Source of the DNA: a virus
Virus record (IMG/VR): IMGVR_UViG_3300042691_020078
Location: 1 to 24,240 of that record
Direction: 5' to 3' (one strand)
Length of the DNA: 24,240 bases
In this document: piece by piece, positions 9,854 through 19,732 of the stretch
Layout: each line of letters opens with the position of its first letter
Position numbering within the stretch: the stretch's first letter is position 1
Made by a program: the position numbers and the translations under genes
The notes under the pieces: generated by a model
Seen by the model: the letters and a program-made list of their open reading frames with translations, nothing else
Told to the model about the DNA's origin: nothing
Database searches by the model: none

Positions 9854-10296
9854 TAGTCGAAGGCCACCATGTCGTAAGTAACTTTGCGGCGTGGGATCTG
9901 GGCTTCTGTGGTGTCGATACCATCCGAGATCACAATACTGACTCCAGAAAAATCGCTGGATCCTGTTTCGGCAATGCCCACAACAGTAGTAAAGATAGAC
10001 GGCAAAATTTCGGCTGCTGTAAAAACCAACGAAAACTTATACCGGTAGGTGACAACCGCGGCTGTCAGCAGATCGACGAACGTTGGTGTCCCAGGAAAGA
10101 TGAGAGTTATGGATAACTTACCGGCAGAGCGTTGCTGCACCATGTCGGAAACGTCGAATGGTGCGTAGCTGTAACTGTTTCCGGTATAGGTAACGTTCTG
10201 GTCGACGGCGAAGTTTTGGTAGCGGGATACAAGAACAGGACTGCCCGAGGTGATGTTGTCAATCTGCAGGTAGAACTGGGGTGTGTAAGTCGTCAT
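9853..10296 (-). CDS. Distal tail protein, lambda gpL/GTA-like (147 aa)
   Basis: A 147-aa protein encoded directly after the tape measure, overlapping it by four bases (ATGA). It begins MTTYTPQFYLQIDNI and continues with VLVSRYQNFAVDQNVTYTGN, YSYAPFDVSDMVQQ and KLSITLIFPGTP. This resembles the tail-tip proteins of the DUF1833/DUF2163 kind, where a short N-terminal beta domain recognises the tape measure end. The C-terminal part ISDGIDTTEAQIPRRKVTYD is typical of these small ring proteins. The inferred role is a ring between the tube and hub at the tail tip. The family assignment is from memory and moderate. Confidence 0.6.
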   Translation of the reverse strand: MTTYTPQFYLQIDNITSGSPVLVSRYQNFAVDQNVTYTGNSYSYAPFDVSDMVQQRSAGKLSITLIFPGTPTFVDLLTAAVVTYRYKFSLVFTAAEILPSIFTTVVGIAETGSSDFSGVSIVISDGIDTTEAQIPRRKVTYDMVAFD

Positions 10297-13190
10297 CGCG
10301 TCACACCAGTGCTCCGGCGAGAAGCCGGGTTGTTTTGCAGCATGTCCAGAGCCATCTTCGCACCCTGTCTAGCGGCTGTGCCAGTGGCTGACACGAGATC
10401 GCGCTGGGTGACATAGTTTGTGCCATCCATTTGCATCACTGGGCCGGTGGTGATATTGACTTGCGGATTTACTGATTCGTTGCCTGTTGAACTAATGCGT
10501 TCGCGTAAAGAAGCCATGGCAGCCTGGCGGTCTTCCTGCGATGTATCGGATCCACCAAAACGGGCAGGACTTATGGTACTCATAAGGGTTGCTTGTCTGG
10601 CTTTCTCGGCCTTAAGTAAGTTCTTTCCTACAAGAGGTAGAGCTTTAGTTCTTACTGTATAGCTCCCGCTGATAGCAGCCTGTGCAGTAGTTGTGGCTGT
10701 TGCTGTGCGTTCGGCGGCGGCTGCGGTGCTCTCCATAGAAGCCTTAAATTTTGCTGCCTGCACAGCTGCTTCGTAAACAGCATCAGCGGCACGCCATTGC
10801 TCGTTGGCAACTTTGATGCTTGTTTGATAGTTTTGCTGTGCAATTACAAGTGCGGATTGTTGAGCCGCTAACGCGTCTAAGTGCCCTTGGTTAAGCACTT
10901 TTTGTGCGCGTGCCAAGTTCACTACTGCTTGAAGTTCGCGGAATTTGACTTCTGCTATCGCTAAGGCAATACGCTGCCGTTCTATCTCTGCTTTAATCTG
11001 AGCGCGAGTTGCGTAGAGTGTGATCTTTGCGTTTTCGATTTCCAGGGCAAGGATTTCTTTAATGATATTGCGACGTTGTCCTTCTGTAGTTGCTTGACTG
11101 AGCTTATTTTGCAGGTTTTGTATTTCTAAGTTGTTAATAGTTTGCTGAGCCTGGCTAAACGCTTGAACAACATTTAAATTATTGTTCAACGCATTTAGAC
11201 TCTCGTTAGCAGCACGACTGAAAGCCTCGGTCTGACGGGCTGCCTCGGCGGCATAGGCGGCTACGTTCTGCTGGCGGCGTTCCAGGTCGATTAGGGCGTT
11301 TGCTCCATCGCGCTCTGCCTGAGCACGTTGAGTAGTTACATGCGCAGCTGCTTTTGTTGTTTCTAGGTCTTTTTCTGCAACAAAAACTTTGTCGACTACT
11401 GCCTGCAACTCTGCTTTTTTGGTCTCTGTAAGTTTATTAGCTGAATCCAGTTGTTTCATTTCTTCGATAGCTGCAACAGCTTTTGCTTTTGCAGCCTCCA
11501 GGGCAAGCTGTTTGTTGATGATCGCGCTTTGCTGCGTTCGTTGTACTTGCTGGTATTCCAGGTTGGCAGATTTGACTTTTTTGGTGGCAATTTGGTCAAT
11601 AATTGTAGACTGTTGATTTAGCGATAAGGCGAATTCTTGTTGTTTAGTGAGAATAGTTACGTCTTGCTGGAGCTGCGCTGTTGCTGCAGCAAGTTCAGCT
11701 TGGCGTAGTTGCGTGATTTGGGCTTGAATTTCGCGGCGGCGTTCCACCGAAGCGGTATCTTGAACCTCTGTGGCACGAAAACCTTGTGCAGGGGCTTGCG
11801 GAGCACCAAAACCAGGCCTAAATTCTTGTTGTAATTTTTTAATAGCTTTTATTTGCTCGGGGCTAGTGCCCTCAAATGCAGCTTTACGTTGATCGAATTT
11901 CTTAGCTAATTCTCTACTTCTTGTCAGATACTGTTTTCGTTCTTCTGGTGTAAGTTGTTGCATAAAATCGCTTGTTGTTTGTGCTTCTGGGGGACCACTA
12001 ACGCCTTTCACAACACGTGTTACCCAATCAAGGAACCCTGCCAAGGGGCCTGCTAAACCTGCCTGTATTTGGAGATTCAACTCTGCCCACGCTCGTGCCA
12101 ATCGATCTGAAGATGCAGTCAGTTGTAACAGAGACTCGCTACCACTTTTACCGACAATTTCGTTATAACGTTTTTGAACTGCAGCGGTAGCTTCAATGTA
12201 CTGACCGGCGTCGATTAGCTGTTTAACGTATCTTTCTTGGCTAGATGATGCGAGAATTGCGCGTTGCTCAATGACAGAAAAATTGTCGATTGGTTTTTGC
12301 AGAGCTTTACCGGCTTCTGCGGCTGAGACACCAAGCTTTTCTATCTGTCCGAAGAGCGCAGAAAAGAGAATTTGACCGCCAAAGCCTGGACCGACAAACG
12401 AGCCAGCAAGACCGCCAAGTACCTGACCGGGACCGCCGCCAAACAGCAAGGGGAAACCTGCGCCAAGCATCAGGTTTTCCATTAACTTGCCGCGTGCTTC
12501 AGATGCAGCTTTTAGTGCGGCAGGACTTCCGGGAATATCGGCGCGTCCACCAATAGGCGAGGTAGGTCCACGTTGTTTTCCACCTCCTGTCGTAGGCGGT
12601 GTTAGCTGCTTATCGACTTTTGCGATAGCAGCAGCTAGCTGCTCAAATTCAACTGTACCAATGTCTACAAGGGAGAATACTCTCTGTAGTTCAGACCTGT
12701 AGAGCTCTAATGAAGCTATATTTTTCGGCAGTTTATCTCCAAAAGCGAGCAGTTCTTCTACGCCTTGGAAGGATTGCGTTGGTGCAGTTCTGCCTACTTT
12801 GTAGAGTTTGTTTAAGGCTTCGATTTCAGCCAGCCCGCCTTTTAAGGAAGCTTTTTGGCGAGCTTGTTCTGCTGCTTGGGTGTAAAGAGTAAACGACTCT
12901 CCCGCTATTTTTGTGTTTGCGGCTAGTTGTTTGAACGCTTGCGCTTGGCTATTAAGACCTGCAGTGGTGCTTGCTAGCTGGCGCTGACCGTTACTTAATT
13001 TGATAACAAAATCGTCTACTTCTTTCTTTAGTACACGGATGCCGTCTACTGCGTTTTTTGCATCAATGGCTAGAGGTGTTTTCTTGATGCTTACAAGAGC
13101 ACTGTCTAACTTATTGATTGTGTCTAGTACGCGTGTAACCTGCGTTACCCCGTCTACCCGTAGCTCAATTACAGCGGGATAGGCGGCCAC
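10293..13190 (-). CDS. Tape measure protein (965 aa)
   Basis: The longest gene here. It has the composition of a tape measure: long Ala/Gln/Glu/Lys-rich helices over residues about 430-880, few Cys or Pro. An interrupting hydrophobic Gly-rich segment lies at residues 240-283 (LGAGFPLLFGGGPGQVLGG, LAGSFVGPGFGGQILFSALF), which probably inserts into the host membrane during DNA entry. At about 0.15 nm per residue the tail would be near 145 nm. The start is GTG at 13188-13190; no stronger start is seen upstream and there is no clear ribosome binding site. It follows the chaperone pair, as usual, across a terminator-like hairpin. No lysozyme or peptidase domain is evident. Confidence 0.88.
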   Translation of the reverse strand: MAAYPAVIELRVDGVTQVTRVLDTINKLDSALVSIKKTPLAIDAKNAVDGIRVLKKEVDDFVIKLSNGQRQLASTTAGLNSQAQAFKQLAANTKIAGESFTLYTQAAEQARQKASLKGGLAEIEALNKLYKVGRTAPTQSFQGVEELLAFGDKLPKNIASLELYRSELQRVFSLVDIGTVEFEQLAAAIAKVDKQLTPPTTGGGKQRGPTSPIGGRADIPGSPAALKAASEARGKLMENLMLGAGFPLLFGGGPGQVLGGLAGSFVGPGFGGQILFSALFGQIEKLGVSAAEAGKALQKPIDNFSVIEQRAILASSSQERYVKQLIDAGQYIEATAAVQKRYNEIVGKSGSESLLQLTASSDRLARAWAELNLQIQAGLAGPLAGFLDWVTRVVKGVSGPPEAQTTSDFMQQLTPEERKQYLTRSRELAKKFDQRKAAFEGTSPEQIKAIKKLQQEFRPGFGAPQAPAQGFRATEVQDTASVERRREIQAQITQLRQAELAAATAQLQQDVTILTKQQEFALSLNQQSTIIDQIATKKVKSANLEYQQVQRTQQSAIINKQLALEAAKAKAVAAIEEMKQLDSANKLTETKKAELQAVVDKVFVAEKDLETTKAAAHVTTQRAQAERDGANALIDLERRQQNVAAYAAEAARQTEAFSRAANESLNALNNNLNVVQAFSQAQQTINNLEIQNLQNKLSQATTEGQRRNIIKEILALEIENAKITLYATRAQIKAEIERQRIALAIAEVKFRELQAVVNLARAQKVLNQGHLDALAAQQSALVIAQQNYQTSIKVANEQWRAADAVYEAAVQAAKFKASMESTAAAAERTATATTTAQAAISGSYTVRTKALPLVGKNLLKAEKARQATLMSTISPARFGGSDTSQEDRQAAMASLRERISSTGNESVNPQVNITTGPVMQMDGTNYVTQRDLVSATGTAARQGAKMALDMLQNNPASRRSTGVTR

Positions 13191-13226: not shown

Positions 13227-13250
13227 AAAAGCCGCCGGATTAGCGGCGGC
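13227..13250 (-). terminator. Terminator-like hairpin between chaperone frame and tape measure
   Basis: A 7-pair all-G/C stem (GCCGCCG with CGGCGGC, at 13231-13237 and 13244-13250) with a 6-base loop, followed on the minus strand by TTTT (13227-13230). The stop codon of the chaperone extension (13240-13242) lies in the loop, and its last codons form one arm. The short T tract suggests partial termination or attenuation, which would lower tape measure expression relative to upstream genes. Confidence 0.5.
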
Positions 13251-13461
13251 CGCGCTTGGCTTTGTCGTAGGCAGCTTGCTCTTCGTCCGCCTGGATCTTG
13301 AAGTAGGTGTACCAGCCCAAGAGTTCGGTGTCCGTCATCCGGTTGCGGAGGTCGCTCAACGTCAGGTTGAGTTTTTCGGCAACGAAAAATTGGATGCGCA
13401 GGTAGCCGTCCTTTTTAAGCTCCTCTTCAAGCGCTTTTGGTGTCCAACTCCTCCGAATCAT
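13240..13461 (-). CDS. Tail assembly chaperone, gpT-like extension frame
   Basis: A 73-codon open frame overlapping the end of the 114-aa chaperone gene by 35 bases in another frame (+1, equivalently -2). From residue 8 it reads PKALEEELKKDGYLRIQFF, then LTLSDLRNRMTDTELLGWYT and YFKIQADEE. The MT-x-x-E-L-x-x-W-x-x-YF block is the signature of gpT-like/DUF4035 C-terminal parts of tail chaperones. In lambda-like phages this part is made only as a frameshift fusion with the first frame and binds the tape measure protein. An ATG exists at 13459-13461 but has no ribosome binding site, so the frame is more likely reached by frameshifting; independent translation is possible. The position just before the tape measure is the expected one. 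Confidence 0.72.
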   Translation of the reverse strand: MIRRSWTPKALEEELKKDGYLRIQFFVAEKLNLTLSDLRNRMTDTELLGWYTYFKIQADEEQAAYDKAKRGRR

Positions 13462-13771
13462 CGGTCAAGACGGCCAGCATCAATGCCTGGAGATCCTTGT
13501 CCTTGACCTCGTTCTTGAGGATGTCGATTTCGGCGGCGTTGAACAACTTCGCTCCAGTCTCGTCGCAGGCTTTTTGCAGCAACAGTTGGAGGGCAAAGGC
13601 GGTGGCGTCCTCAGACTTTGCTTGCTTTTGGGCGCGTTCGCGCTCAGCCATGGTCAGAGGTGTGACCCACATTTCAAAAGTGGAGCCGTCGCTGAGTTCC
13701 ACTTCTTTTTTGGTGGGCTCCAGGTTTGCTGCCTTGCGGAGACGGTCGATTGCACGAAGCGCGGCAGGCAT
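13427..13771 (-). CDS. Tail assembly chaperone, gpG-like
   Basis: A 114-aa mainly helical protein: MPAALRAIDRLRKAANLEPT, a short beta part with VELSDGSTFEMWVTPLTMAE, RERAQKQAKSEDATAFALQL, then acidic helices ending DDSEELDTKSA. The early beta region with xPLTMxERxxA followed by helices matches gpG-like chaperones that coat the tape measure before tube assembly. Gene order (tail tube, this gene, overlapping second frame, tape measure) is the classical arrangement. The 3' end contains a candidate slippery site. It lies after the tube terminator and a -10-like element. No ribosome binding site is obvious before the ATG. Confidence 0.75.
   Translation of the reverse strand: MPAALRAIDRLRKAANLEPTKKEVELSDGSTFEMWVTPLTMAERERAQKQAKSEDATAFALQLLLQKACDETGAKLFNAAEIDILKNEVKDKDLQALMLAVLTDDSEELDTKSA
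13435..13438 (-). other. Candidate programmed +1 frameshift site in the chaperone pair
   Basis: On the coding strand the frame-0 codons here are ACC AAA AGC GCT TGA. The run of four A lets tRNA-Lys on AAA slip one base forward onto AAA with full re-pairing, after which reading continues GCG CTT GAA in the gpT-like frame. The TGA stop lies 6 bases downstream of the run. A fusion made here would join K112 of the first frame to A10 of the second, giving about 176 residues. The mechanism is inferred; tail chaperone frameshifting is established in many phages. Confidence 0.5.
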
Positions 13772-13815: not shown

Positions 13816-13844
13816 AAAAAGCCCCAGCCGGTGAGGGCTGGGGC
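13816..13844 (-). terminator. Intrinsic terminator after the major tail tube gene
   Basis: A perfect 9-pair stem, GGCTGGGGC type (13821-13829 with 13836-13844), with a 6-base loop, followed on the minus strand by TTTTT and then ATTTC. It begins 33 bases after the tail tube stop codon. It should cap the tube transcript and limit read-through into the chaperone genes. Confidence 0.82.
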
Positions 13845-13876: not shown

Positions 13877-14623
13877 TCAGGACTTCGACAGGTCGAAGGT
13901 GGGGGCGGCGCTGGGGCGGAAGGCGATTTCCACGCTCTGGCCGTCGTCCGGGTTCACGGTCAGGCTGGCCGAGGTCAGAATCACAGGCACCGTGATGCTG
14001 CGGCTGGTGGTGTCGTTCACCGAGCCAGAGGCAACAATGCGGTCGATGTAGAGCTTCATGGTCGCGCCAGCCTGGGTTGCCTGGATGACGTCCTCGATCA
14101 TCCGGCTGGACAGGTTGGTGTCGTCGTCGGTGGTGTACACCGTTGCGGAACCAGAGCCGTCGGCGAAGCCGGTGATGTAGCTGCGGAAGGGGGCGTACTG
14201 ACCGGCTTCCTGACCGATGGTGGTGACGTCAATTTCGCTTCGTGTGATTTCGAAGCTCCACTCGCGCACAGAGCCCACAGCTGCGGGGGCGGTGTACACG
14301 ATGCTGGCAAAGTTTGCGCCAAAGCCGCTGGGTGCTGCAGTTGCGGTAACGGCCACGCCGCCAGCGGTGGCGCTAAGAGTCATGATGCCGGTCGCGGCGT
14401 TGTACGTCTTAACGAAGTACGGACCGGCGGGAATTGCGTTGGTGGTGGTAGCACCAGCGGGGTAGGCCAGGGTCACGGGATCATTGACCTTGAAACCCAG
14501 GTAGGAGCCGACGGTGATGTTGGCGCCAGTGGAAGGGAAAGCGCCAGCGGCAAGAGTGGTGACGGAGGTGCCGGCAGGGGTGTAATACAGGGCGCCGGAA
14601 GTGCCCGAGAGAACGGTGGCCAT
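13877..14623 (-). CDS. Major tail tube protein (248 aa)
   Basis: Probable main tube subunit. The C-terminal two-thirds shows the tube pattern: VREWSFEITRSEIDVTTIGQ, then FRSYITGFADGSGSATVYTT, and a final domain with ITVPVILTSASLTVNPDDGQ. The N-terminal part (residues about 30-105) is an added domain with a VGSYLGFKVNDPVTLAYPAG strand, an IPAGPYFVKTY block and TLSATAGGVAV, resembling the small beta domain with a YYV-type strand found in diverse viral structural proteins. It may decorate the outside of the tube. Own terminator, Ala/Gly/Thr-rich high-GC coding and position between the tail terminator and chaperones all fit a high-copy protein. A small CGGGC/GCCCG hairpin lies in the leader (14654-14666). 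Confidence 0.82.
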   Translation of the reverse strand: MATVLSGTSGALYYTPAGTSVTTLAAGAFPSTGANITVGSYLGFKVNDPVTLAYPAGATTTNAIPAGPYFVKTYNAATGIMTLSATAGGVAVTATAAPSGFGANFASIVYTAPAAVGSVREWSFEITRSEIDVTTIGQEAGQYAPFRSYITGFADGSGSATVYTTDDDTNLSSRMIEDVIQATQAGATMKLYIDRIVASGSVNDTTSRSITVPVILTSASLTVNPDDGQSVEIAFRPSAAPTFDLSKS

Positions 14624-18767: not shown

Positions 18768-19013
18768 TTAGGTCGCTATAAAGTCGCCGGCCTCAGTAAG
18801 GAGTGGTTCGGAGGTTTCTGTAAGCAGCAGAACTGCCCGCTCCAGCAGCAATAGATATGCGTCCTCTGTTAAAAGTGAGAAACCGTCTTCTAGTAGCAAG
18901 TGGTAATCAGTTATTTCGGGCAGGATTTCGGTATTGTCGATGAAAATTTGAGTGACTTCGGTACTACCTAAGTACAGGGATTGGACTTCTTCGTTGCCGA
19001 GCCGGAAGGCCAT
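18768..19013 (-). CDS. Small virion-type protein with Leu/Glu repeats (81 aa)
   Basis: An 81-residue protein with two parts. Residues 1-33 show a repeated pattern, MAFRLGNEEVQSLYLGSTEV then TQIFIDNTEI, like the 'LGxTEVxxhYLG' repeats found in phage collar and tail appendage proteins. Residues 38-80 are a Leu/Glu repeat: YHLLLEDGFSLLTEDAYLLL, LERAVLLLTETSEPLLTEAG. The repeat unit is a beta-type 'xLLLEDG' motif. Its start overlaps the collagen-like gene's stop (TAATG), so the two are coupled. Probable structural role in head or collar fibres, inferred from repeat type and position; the C-terminus of the 287-aa tail protein has a similar motif. Confidence 0.62.
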   Translation of the reverse strand: MAFRLGNEEVQSLYLGSTEVTQIFIDNTEILPEITDYHLLLEDGFSLLTEDAYLLLLERAVLLLTETSEPLLTEAGDFIAT

Positions 19014-19732
19014 TAGACGATGACGTACAGCGTCGTAGCGCTTTTGGTTGGTAGGGCGTCGTAGTCGGCTTGGCTGATCTTGATGATGTTCGTGATCGCT
19101 GTTGCTCCAGTGATTCCGGTTGTGTTGGAGGTCAGGACGTTGGCCCAGCCGGTGTCGTAGCTGGTGTCTGTGGTTTTGACGAGGGCTTGGCCCGTTAACC
19201 CGCCGCTGGCGATGCCGATTCCGGGACGGCCGTTCAAGCCGTCTTCGCCGTCCTTACCTTTTTTGCCCGGGGGGCCGACCAGGCTTTCCAGCCATTCACT
19301 TTCGGTGCCGTCGAAGCCGTCGGCGACGGCGATTTCGTAGGCGCTTGCTCCAGTGGGACCGTTTAGGCCGTTGATGCCTGGGCGGCCTTCGGGGCCGGGT
19401 GCGCCCTGCTCGCCACGGTCGCCTTTTTCGCCTCGCTCGCCTCGGGGGCCGATCTCGCCGCGTTCGCCCTTAGGGCCGATTTCGCCGCGGTCACCCTTCT
19501 CCCCGCGCTCACCGCGGGGGCCGACTTCGCCCTGTGGGCCTTGCGGGCCTTGCGCTCCAGCTGGCCCGCGGGGGCCGGGGTCGCCTTGGGGGCCTTGTAG
19601 GCCGTCCGCTCCAGCAGGACCTGGTTCGCCGGGTGCTGGTGGGCCTTGGGACTCGATGGCCTCAAGGCGTTTGGCCAAGCGCAGCAGTGTCGCTACCTGC
19701 GCCAGCGTGAGGTAGTCGGCTGCAGTTGGCAT
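19013..19732 (-). CDS. Collagen-like fibre protein in the head module (239 aa)
   Basis: A 239-aa protein. Residues 1-29 form an N-terminal helix (TLAQVATLLRLAKRLEAIES). Residues 35-130 are 32 uninterrupted Gly-X-Y triplets, rich in GERGEKGDRGEIGP. After a linker that matches a fibre module (AYEIAVADGFDGTESEWLES) there are about eight more triplets (GPPGKKGKDGEDGLNGRPG). The end (GLTGQALVKTTDTSYDTGWA, then SQADYDALPTKSATTLYVIV) is a cap seen in many phage upper-fibre proteins. Predicted to form a homotrimer, probably a head fibre or whisker, since it lies between portal and scaffold. It starts 4 bases before the portal stop in reading order and is coupled to the 81-aa gene. Only the location argues against a tail role. 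Confidence 0.82.
   Translation of the reverse strand: MPTAADYLTLAQVATLLRLAKRLEAIESQGPPAPGEPGPAGADGLQGPQGDPGPRGPAGAQGPQGPQGEVGPRGERGEKGDRGEIGPKGERGEIGPRGERGEKGDRGEQGAPGPEGRPGINGLNGPTGASAYEIAVADGFDGTESEWLESLVGPPGKKGKDGEDGLNGRPGIGIASGGLTGQALVKTTDTSYDTGWANVLTSNTTGITGATAITNIIKISQADYDALPTKSATTLYVIV

Follow-up and report, generated by a model that had tools for sequence, protein, structure and literature searches.

For the G/GT pair of tail assembly chaperones, tailed phages use −1, −2 or +1 frameshifting (PMC5009743). In lambda, G/GT depends on a programmed −1 shift at G GGA AAG, with counterparts in long-tailed phages (PMC5009743), and a +1 shift has been proposed for G/GT in the archaeal tailed viruses HSTV-2 (PMC5009743) and the HF1 group (PMC7230728). 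Other +1 sites lie in the capsid and tail shaft genes of the Listeria phages PSA, A118 and A500 (CCC_UGA, CCC_UCC) and in yeast, where those of Ty1, ABP140, EST3 and Ty3 read CUU_AGG_C, CUU_AGU_U and GCG_AGU_U (PMC5009743). An AGN codon stands in the A site at yeast (AGG, AGU) and at some mitochondrial (AGY) +1 sites, and the Ty1 shift is helped by an abundant tRNA for the +1 codon (PMC5009743). According to the PRFect paper, a general forward motif has yet to be identified (PMC10885494).

Here we analysed a chaperone pair carried by a linear IMG/VR virus record, IMGVR_UViG_3300042691_020078 (24,240 nucleotides, hereafter the window). We predict, with a probability of about 0.93, that the pair consists of a tail assembly chaperone G and a frameshift extension GT, reached by a +1 slip at AAA_AGC. 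It resembles lambda G/GT in gene position, in the kind of chaperone pair and in the logic of a rare C-terminal extension; unlike lambda, the window would slip +1 at AAA_AGC, with neither heptamer nor consistent 3′ structure. A lambda-like GGGAAAG is present in one relative (L199). With HSTV-2 and HF1 the window shares +1 access to the T part of the chaperone, predicted from sequence in both cases, but the HF1 motif is TTT_CGC, whereas here it is AAA_AGN, with hundreds of relatives and −1 sisters. In our literature search, which was weak on subscription journals, neither AAA_AGC in the role of a +1 site nor direction switching at one chaperone seam turned up as the subject of a paper. As +1 shifting in phage G/GT is already known, what is new here is the AAA_AGN rule and the repeated switching of direction at one seam.

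Results

Gene order around the chaperone pair

The late genes of the window lie on the minus strand and comprise terminase, portal, scaffold, major capsid protein, connectors, putative tail tube, chaperone pair, putative tape measure and tail proteins. The features used below are as follows.

10293..13190, minus strand: putative tape measure gene, GTG start as drawn, downstream of the chaperone pair (size and position)
13240..13461, minus strand: ORF2, a mechanical frame of 73 aa in the +1 (equivalently −2) frame relative to ORF1 (sequence)
13243..13434, minus strand: T part of GT, 64 residues after the predicted +1 slip (ALEEELKKDGY...RGRR), conserved in 34 relatives
13427..13429, minus strand: TGA stop of G (sequence)
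13427..13771, minus strand: ORF1, or G, gpG-like tail assembly chaperone of 114 aa, the unshifted product (PHROG profiles, Pfam, model)
13433..13438, minus strand: predicted slip site AAA_AGC, with P-site AAA at 13438-13436 and A-site AGC at 13435-13433, the base effectively skipped being A 13435
13459..13461, minus strand: ATG of the mechanical ORF2, probably unused, without Shine-Dalgarno and not conserved in the clade
13821..13844, minus strand: intrinsic-terminator-like hairpin with a run of T, downstream of the putative tail tube gene and ahead of G
13877..14623, minus strand: putative tail tube gene, upstream of G (position)

The tail tube and tape measure genes of the window were named by position. 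In phage KBS-S-2A, the gene in the same place as the putative tape measure is annotated as such, while the window's own gene matched nothing in PHROG and Pfam profile searches. The putative tail tube gene had no match in the profile searches either; its DNA is 69% identical over 173 bases to the KBS-S-2A gene in the same place. The overlapping pair is thus present where a G/GT pair is expected, between neighbours assigned by position and from the KBS-S-2A record. The phage appears cyanophage-like, its cyanobacterial kinship being drawn from KBS-S-2A, S-2L and S-H1 only, and no prophage relative was found in the 84,980 genomes of the host search.

Among the matches listed, a hairpin similar to the terminator-like one was found ahead of G in the window's group (51/51), clade B (29/29), the KBS group (20/23) and the L189 group (48/55), but in few members of the L201 group (5/39) and in none of the marine clade (0/62). 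The element may keep expression of the chaperone below that of the tail tube protein. Two other genes of the window were recorded. A 239-aa protein with a long collagen-like Gly-X-Y repeat (19013-19732, minus strand) adjoins the portal gene, and an HNH endonuclease frame (656-991, PHROG 2214, E 9e-26) lies on the plus strand, opposite to the late genes.

The first product is a gpG-like chaperone

ORF1 ends GAC ACC AAA AGC GCT TGA, where AAA at 13438-13436 encodes K112 and the fourth A is at 13435. G matches PHROG 20784 (E 6e-33) and the tail assembly chaperone family PHROG 344 (E 1.4e-6), and the latter is also matched by G of 24 of the 34 relatives. The Pfam family Phage_TAC_13 scored E 8e-4, below the family cut-off. 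Among solved structures, the predicted model of G (mean pLDDT 77) is best matched by 2OB9, the tail assembly chaperone of HK97 (probability 1.00, E 9e-4), which points to the HK97 chaperone fold, although the TM-score is below 0.5. By PHROG 344 and by this best fold match, the first product is a tail assembly chaperone of the gpG kind.

The T part is conserved as protein but has no conserved start

The mechanical ORF2 enters the predicted T part at its residue A10 (GCG, 13434-13432), and the T stop codon is at 13242-13240 on the minus strand. T matches PHROG 26456, and 26 of the 34 members of the T alignment match the tail protein family PHROG 337. In the window's clade the median dN/dS of T was 0.21 for the +1 frame, compared to 1.1 and 1.6 for the two others, which supports the view that selection acts in the +1 frame and that T evolves as protein. 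The stretch MTDTELLGWYTYF, taken in the sequence-only reading for a gpT signature, is indeed present in ORF2; at least 90% of 34 relatives keep the T, E and W of this stretch. That reading also placed two overlapping frames here, the second one +1 (or −2) of the first, and this overlap, the coordinates and the residue numbers K112 and A10 all hold, on the minus strand, which it had not specified.

T could also be made without a frameshift, as a separate protein initiated at its own ATG 13461 or through translational coupling. The window's T frame does hold this ATG, 23 bases ahead of the slip codon. However, no Shine-Dalgarno sequence precedes it, as had been remarked from the sequence alone, and in 193 of the 218 listed loci with T in the +1 frame, that frame offers no start codon (ATG, GTG or TTG) ahead of the slip (among distinct close +1 relatives, only 10 of 50 have one). 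Beyond the slip, the first T-frame start mostly comes 30-120 bases on, inside T. We therefore consider a separate start very unlikely: T is under protein selection and lacks a conserved start of its own. The 73-aa second frame described earlier exists as an open frame, but its ATG appears incidental, and the translated T would be the 64 residues that follow the slip (13434-13243).

T has been left out of deposited annotations. Gene 44 of S-2L (L083:2501-2887) is drawn in the unshifted frame only, and in KBS-S-2A (L002:6805-6981) no annotated feature covers T.

AAA_AGN marks the seam in all +1 relatives

Relatives were collected as G/T loci from viral contigs and phage records, giving 282 distinct loci among the matches listed; they are mostly metagenome contigs and are not mutually independent. 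The T frame was assigned with the T profile, blind to the slip motif. It was +1 in 218 loci and −1 in 64, and in none of those listed was T fused to G in frame. The phage records covered included no cultured +1 member. For each +1 locus we defined a permitted window, the zero-frame codons after which a +1 slip enters the open T frame, which spans 3-21 codons (3 codons in 52 loci and 4-6 in 103, among the matches listed). Within it, AAA followed by A was found in 218/218 listed loci, exactly once in 211 and with a second occurrence in 7. The codon after AAA was in every one of these 218 an AGN codon (AGC 207, AGT 7, AGG 2, AGA 2), while none of the 299 further in-frame AAA_A listed from these genes reads AAA_AGC. 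After clustering of the +1 relatives at 80% identity, the four-base run lay in the permitted window of 34/34 clusters, against 4.5 expected by chance. In the window's clade the lysine at the seam is encoded by AAA in 50/50 cases, whereas elsewhere AAA makes up 41% of the lysine codons. An upstream T-frame stop touches AAA in the marine clade (TTR AAA AGC) and in the ATG AAA AGC groups, and the position of the slip is thereby pinned.

The sequence-only reading had placed a +1 slip at the A run and named alignment of the junction across relatives as a check. The alignment shows A run, overlap and T frame to be conserved, with AAA_A in all 218 +1 loci listed; the site is conserved, upstream start codons are mostly lacking, the predicted fusion is gapless in the main groups and there is no heptamer. 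The proposal is thus supported, except that the conserved motif is AAA_AGN and not the mere A run. In the window, no −1 heptamer of the X XXY YYZ kind is found at the seam and T is in the +1 frame, which sets it apart from canonical −1 sites, and a conserved shift site does lie within the overlap.

Conservation of AAA_AGC could also reflect overlapping coding or a constraint on the protein, T not being joined to G. The seam does lie within the ORF overlap, and its lysine is conserved in −1 relatives too. Three observations speak against this explanation. In most +1 relatives, stops close the T frame ahead of the slip or it cannot be started there, which leaves no second code in need of protection. 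In −1 relatives the lysine is followed by different residues (I, N, A, E), yet in +1 loci AAAA is invariably followed by G. Finally, AT-rich relatives take AGC over AGT 62 to 3 at the slip site, against 55 to 103 elsewhere. We judge that a constraint of this kind is highly improbable as the sole cause.

The rule was fixed before three new searches, which brought 131 further distinct loci among the matches listed. In a new +1 lineage (L369-L372), which shares about 40% identity with members known before, 4/4 loci carry AAA_AGC, and heptamers were found in 127/127 −1 loci listed. Taken together, the comparative evidence supports programmed +1 frameshifting, with its site pinned on the sequence.

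Predicted −1 shifts at the same joint in sister phages

Among the matches listed, 62 of the 64 −1 loci have an X XXY YYZ heptamer at or near the same seam (CCCAAAA, CCCAAAG, AAAAAAC, AAAAAAA or GGGAAAG). The exceptions are the Prochlorococcus phages MED4-184 and MED4-117 (L205, L206), in which T is in the −1 frame without such a heptamer and the seam reads GCA AAG GAA TCC TAA; a single-tRNA slip from AAG to AAA is perhaps used there. Clade B, which is −1 with CCCAAAA or CCCAAAG, is the sister of the +1 clade that includes the window, with 80-84% identity between its G proteins and that of the window. The L189 clade, +1 with ATG AAA AGC, nests among the −1 phages resembling KBS-S-2A.

In a careful tree, 3 direction changes were needed, 2 of them forced by starred branches, and a single change was rejected (AU test, p 4e-6; G alone, 2e-7; T alone, 0.014). 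With more lineages included, 5 changes were needed, 2 of them forced. Swapping of the T module as the only cause of the changes was discarded, since the G-only and T-only trees each reject a single change.

The fused proteins of the window's clade, clade B and the KBS, L189 and L201 groups align without gaps at D-x-K-[A/I/N]-[L/I]. The seam is about 6 residues later in the marine clade, and a few columns away in S-H1 and the MED4 phages. Between GAC and CGAACTC, a +1 phage (L006) has 21 bases and a −1 phage (L029) has 19, a net two-base difference by which the direction was swapped with both flanks kept in register. From these alignments and trees, one orthologous joint is read as having switched frameshift direction at least two to three times. 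This −1 use by sister phages at the same place is beyond what could be seen from the window alone.

The register of the joint also bears on how the +1 frame is reached, as a −2 slip like that of phage Mu leads to the identical net frame, in the same kind of gene pair. The Mu slip is nevertheless different: the tRNA re-pairs two bases upstream and one residue is added, neither of which is supported here. After a −2 slip tRNA-Lys would sit on CCA in the window, or on UGA in relatives, a poor match in either case, whereas after a +1 slip all three bases re-pair; and the extra residue would disturb fused proteins that the +1 reading already aligns without gaps to −1 relatives. The gapless fusions of the main +1 and −1 groups favour +1 over −2, and we give the −2 slip as little credence as the constraint explanation.

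Least probable of all are transcriptional slippage on the A run, which is present but at four A is too short for known cases, where runs usually count about 8 or more, and an assembly error, since the same seam recurs in 218 distinct contigs among the matches listed, from many samples.

RNA structure and candidate stimulators

In the −1 KBS group, the heptamer is followed after about 7 bases by two hairpins, in which 8 of 25 pairs show compensatory changes. Their pairs form in 93% and 90% of cells in the KBS group against 52% and 59% for the neighbouring nested +1 clade, a comparison that favours KBS, from which the hairpin model was derived. Over the 60 bases 3′ of the slip, the −1 representatives had a mean folding z-score of −2.0 and the +1 representatives one of −0.5 (p 3e-4, kinship uncorrected), and a control stretch showed no such difference. 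The low values come mainly from KBS, clade B being weaker (−0.6 over 60 bases, −2.1 over 80). The contrast fits the use of a 3′ stimulator by −1 sites and not by +1 sites. In the window's clade, no consistent signal of a 3′ stem-loop was seen (mean z −0.7 over 60 bases and −1.8 over 80, 18 representatives).

Other stimulators were considered for the window. At +1 sites of the prfB type the A-site codon is a stop, and a Shine-Dalgarno sequence lies about 3 bases upstream. The window has AGC in the A site, and its GGAGG, which lies 11 bases ahead of AAA and lacks conservation across the clade, was rejected as a 5′ stimulator. A rare A-site codon was set aside as far as the codon usage of the phage goes, AGC being its commonest serine codon; slow decoding of AGC by a scarce tRNA would be at most a candidate cause. 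The window's clade thus yielded no conserved stimulator.

In the marine clade (L087-L166; L084:2819-2830), GAG GCT AAA GCC occupies the codons six to three before the slip and is invariant in 58/58 distinct sequences, though synonymous codons vary elsewhere; it is absent from the other +1 clades. It is possible that it acts as a 5′ stimulator, through GAGG or through a GGC-UAAA-GCC mini-hairpin.

Discussion

The scheme that we propose for the +1 slip is as follows. Most ribosomes would end at the TGA at 13429-13427 and release G. In a minority, the peptidyl-tRNA-Lys on AAA 13438-13436, with AGC in the A site, would move one base forward and re-pair with the overlapping AAA, so that the next codon read would be GCG (Ala). 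Another 64 residues would then be added, completing GT (...D-T-K-A-L-E-E-E-L...). If the roles are those known from lambda, G may coat the tape measure protein and the T part may recruit the tail tube protein. Site, overlap, T frame, direction and protein register are what the comparison of related loci reveals; that slippage occurs in cells, driven by competition between the in-frame AGC and the +1 codon GCN, and that the roles of G and T are lambda-like, we infer. One tRNA is expected to decode both AGC and AGT, and the preference for AGC over AGT thus suggests that selection may act on the GCN codon of the +1 frame, in a way comparable to Ty1, whose shift profits from the tRNA for its +1 codon.

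Among described +1 sites, those of the Ty type share with this one a sense AGN codon in the A site (218/218 +1 relatives listed). They differ in being eukaryotic; here, lysine AAA in the P site would re-pair perfectly and AGC is not rare in the phage. We take the yeast and mitochondrial parallel as a lead, with no kinship implied. The Listeria phages also shift +1 in structural genes, and there too the direction varies for the capsid (PSA +1, A118 and A500 −1), but other genes are concerned, with Ig-like extensions, the P-site codon is for proline, and no shared joint is kept in register.

A wider hypothesis, to which we give even odds, is that AAA_AGN, chiefly AGC, represents a general class of bacterial +1 site, as yet without a name, that needs no stop codon, rare codon or RNA structure. 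Competition between AGC and GCN (Ala) would drive it; it would have arisen repeatedly in chaperone genes of marine and freshwater phages, exchanging with −1 heptamers through net two-base length changes, and the direction of the shift would be near neutral and freely evolvable.

Frameshift direction is generally treated as case-specific, even though −1, −2 and +1 are known from different phages. Here, sister clades with 81-84% identical chaperones differ in direction with the register kept, which makes them a natural experiment on direction and rate; in the KBS comparison, the 3′ hairpin is missing on the +1 side. The simple +1 motif could serve annotation tools, and would make the T part annotatable in hundreds of genomes that now omit it.
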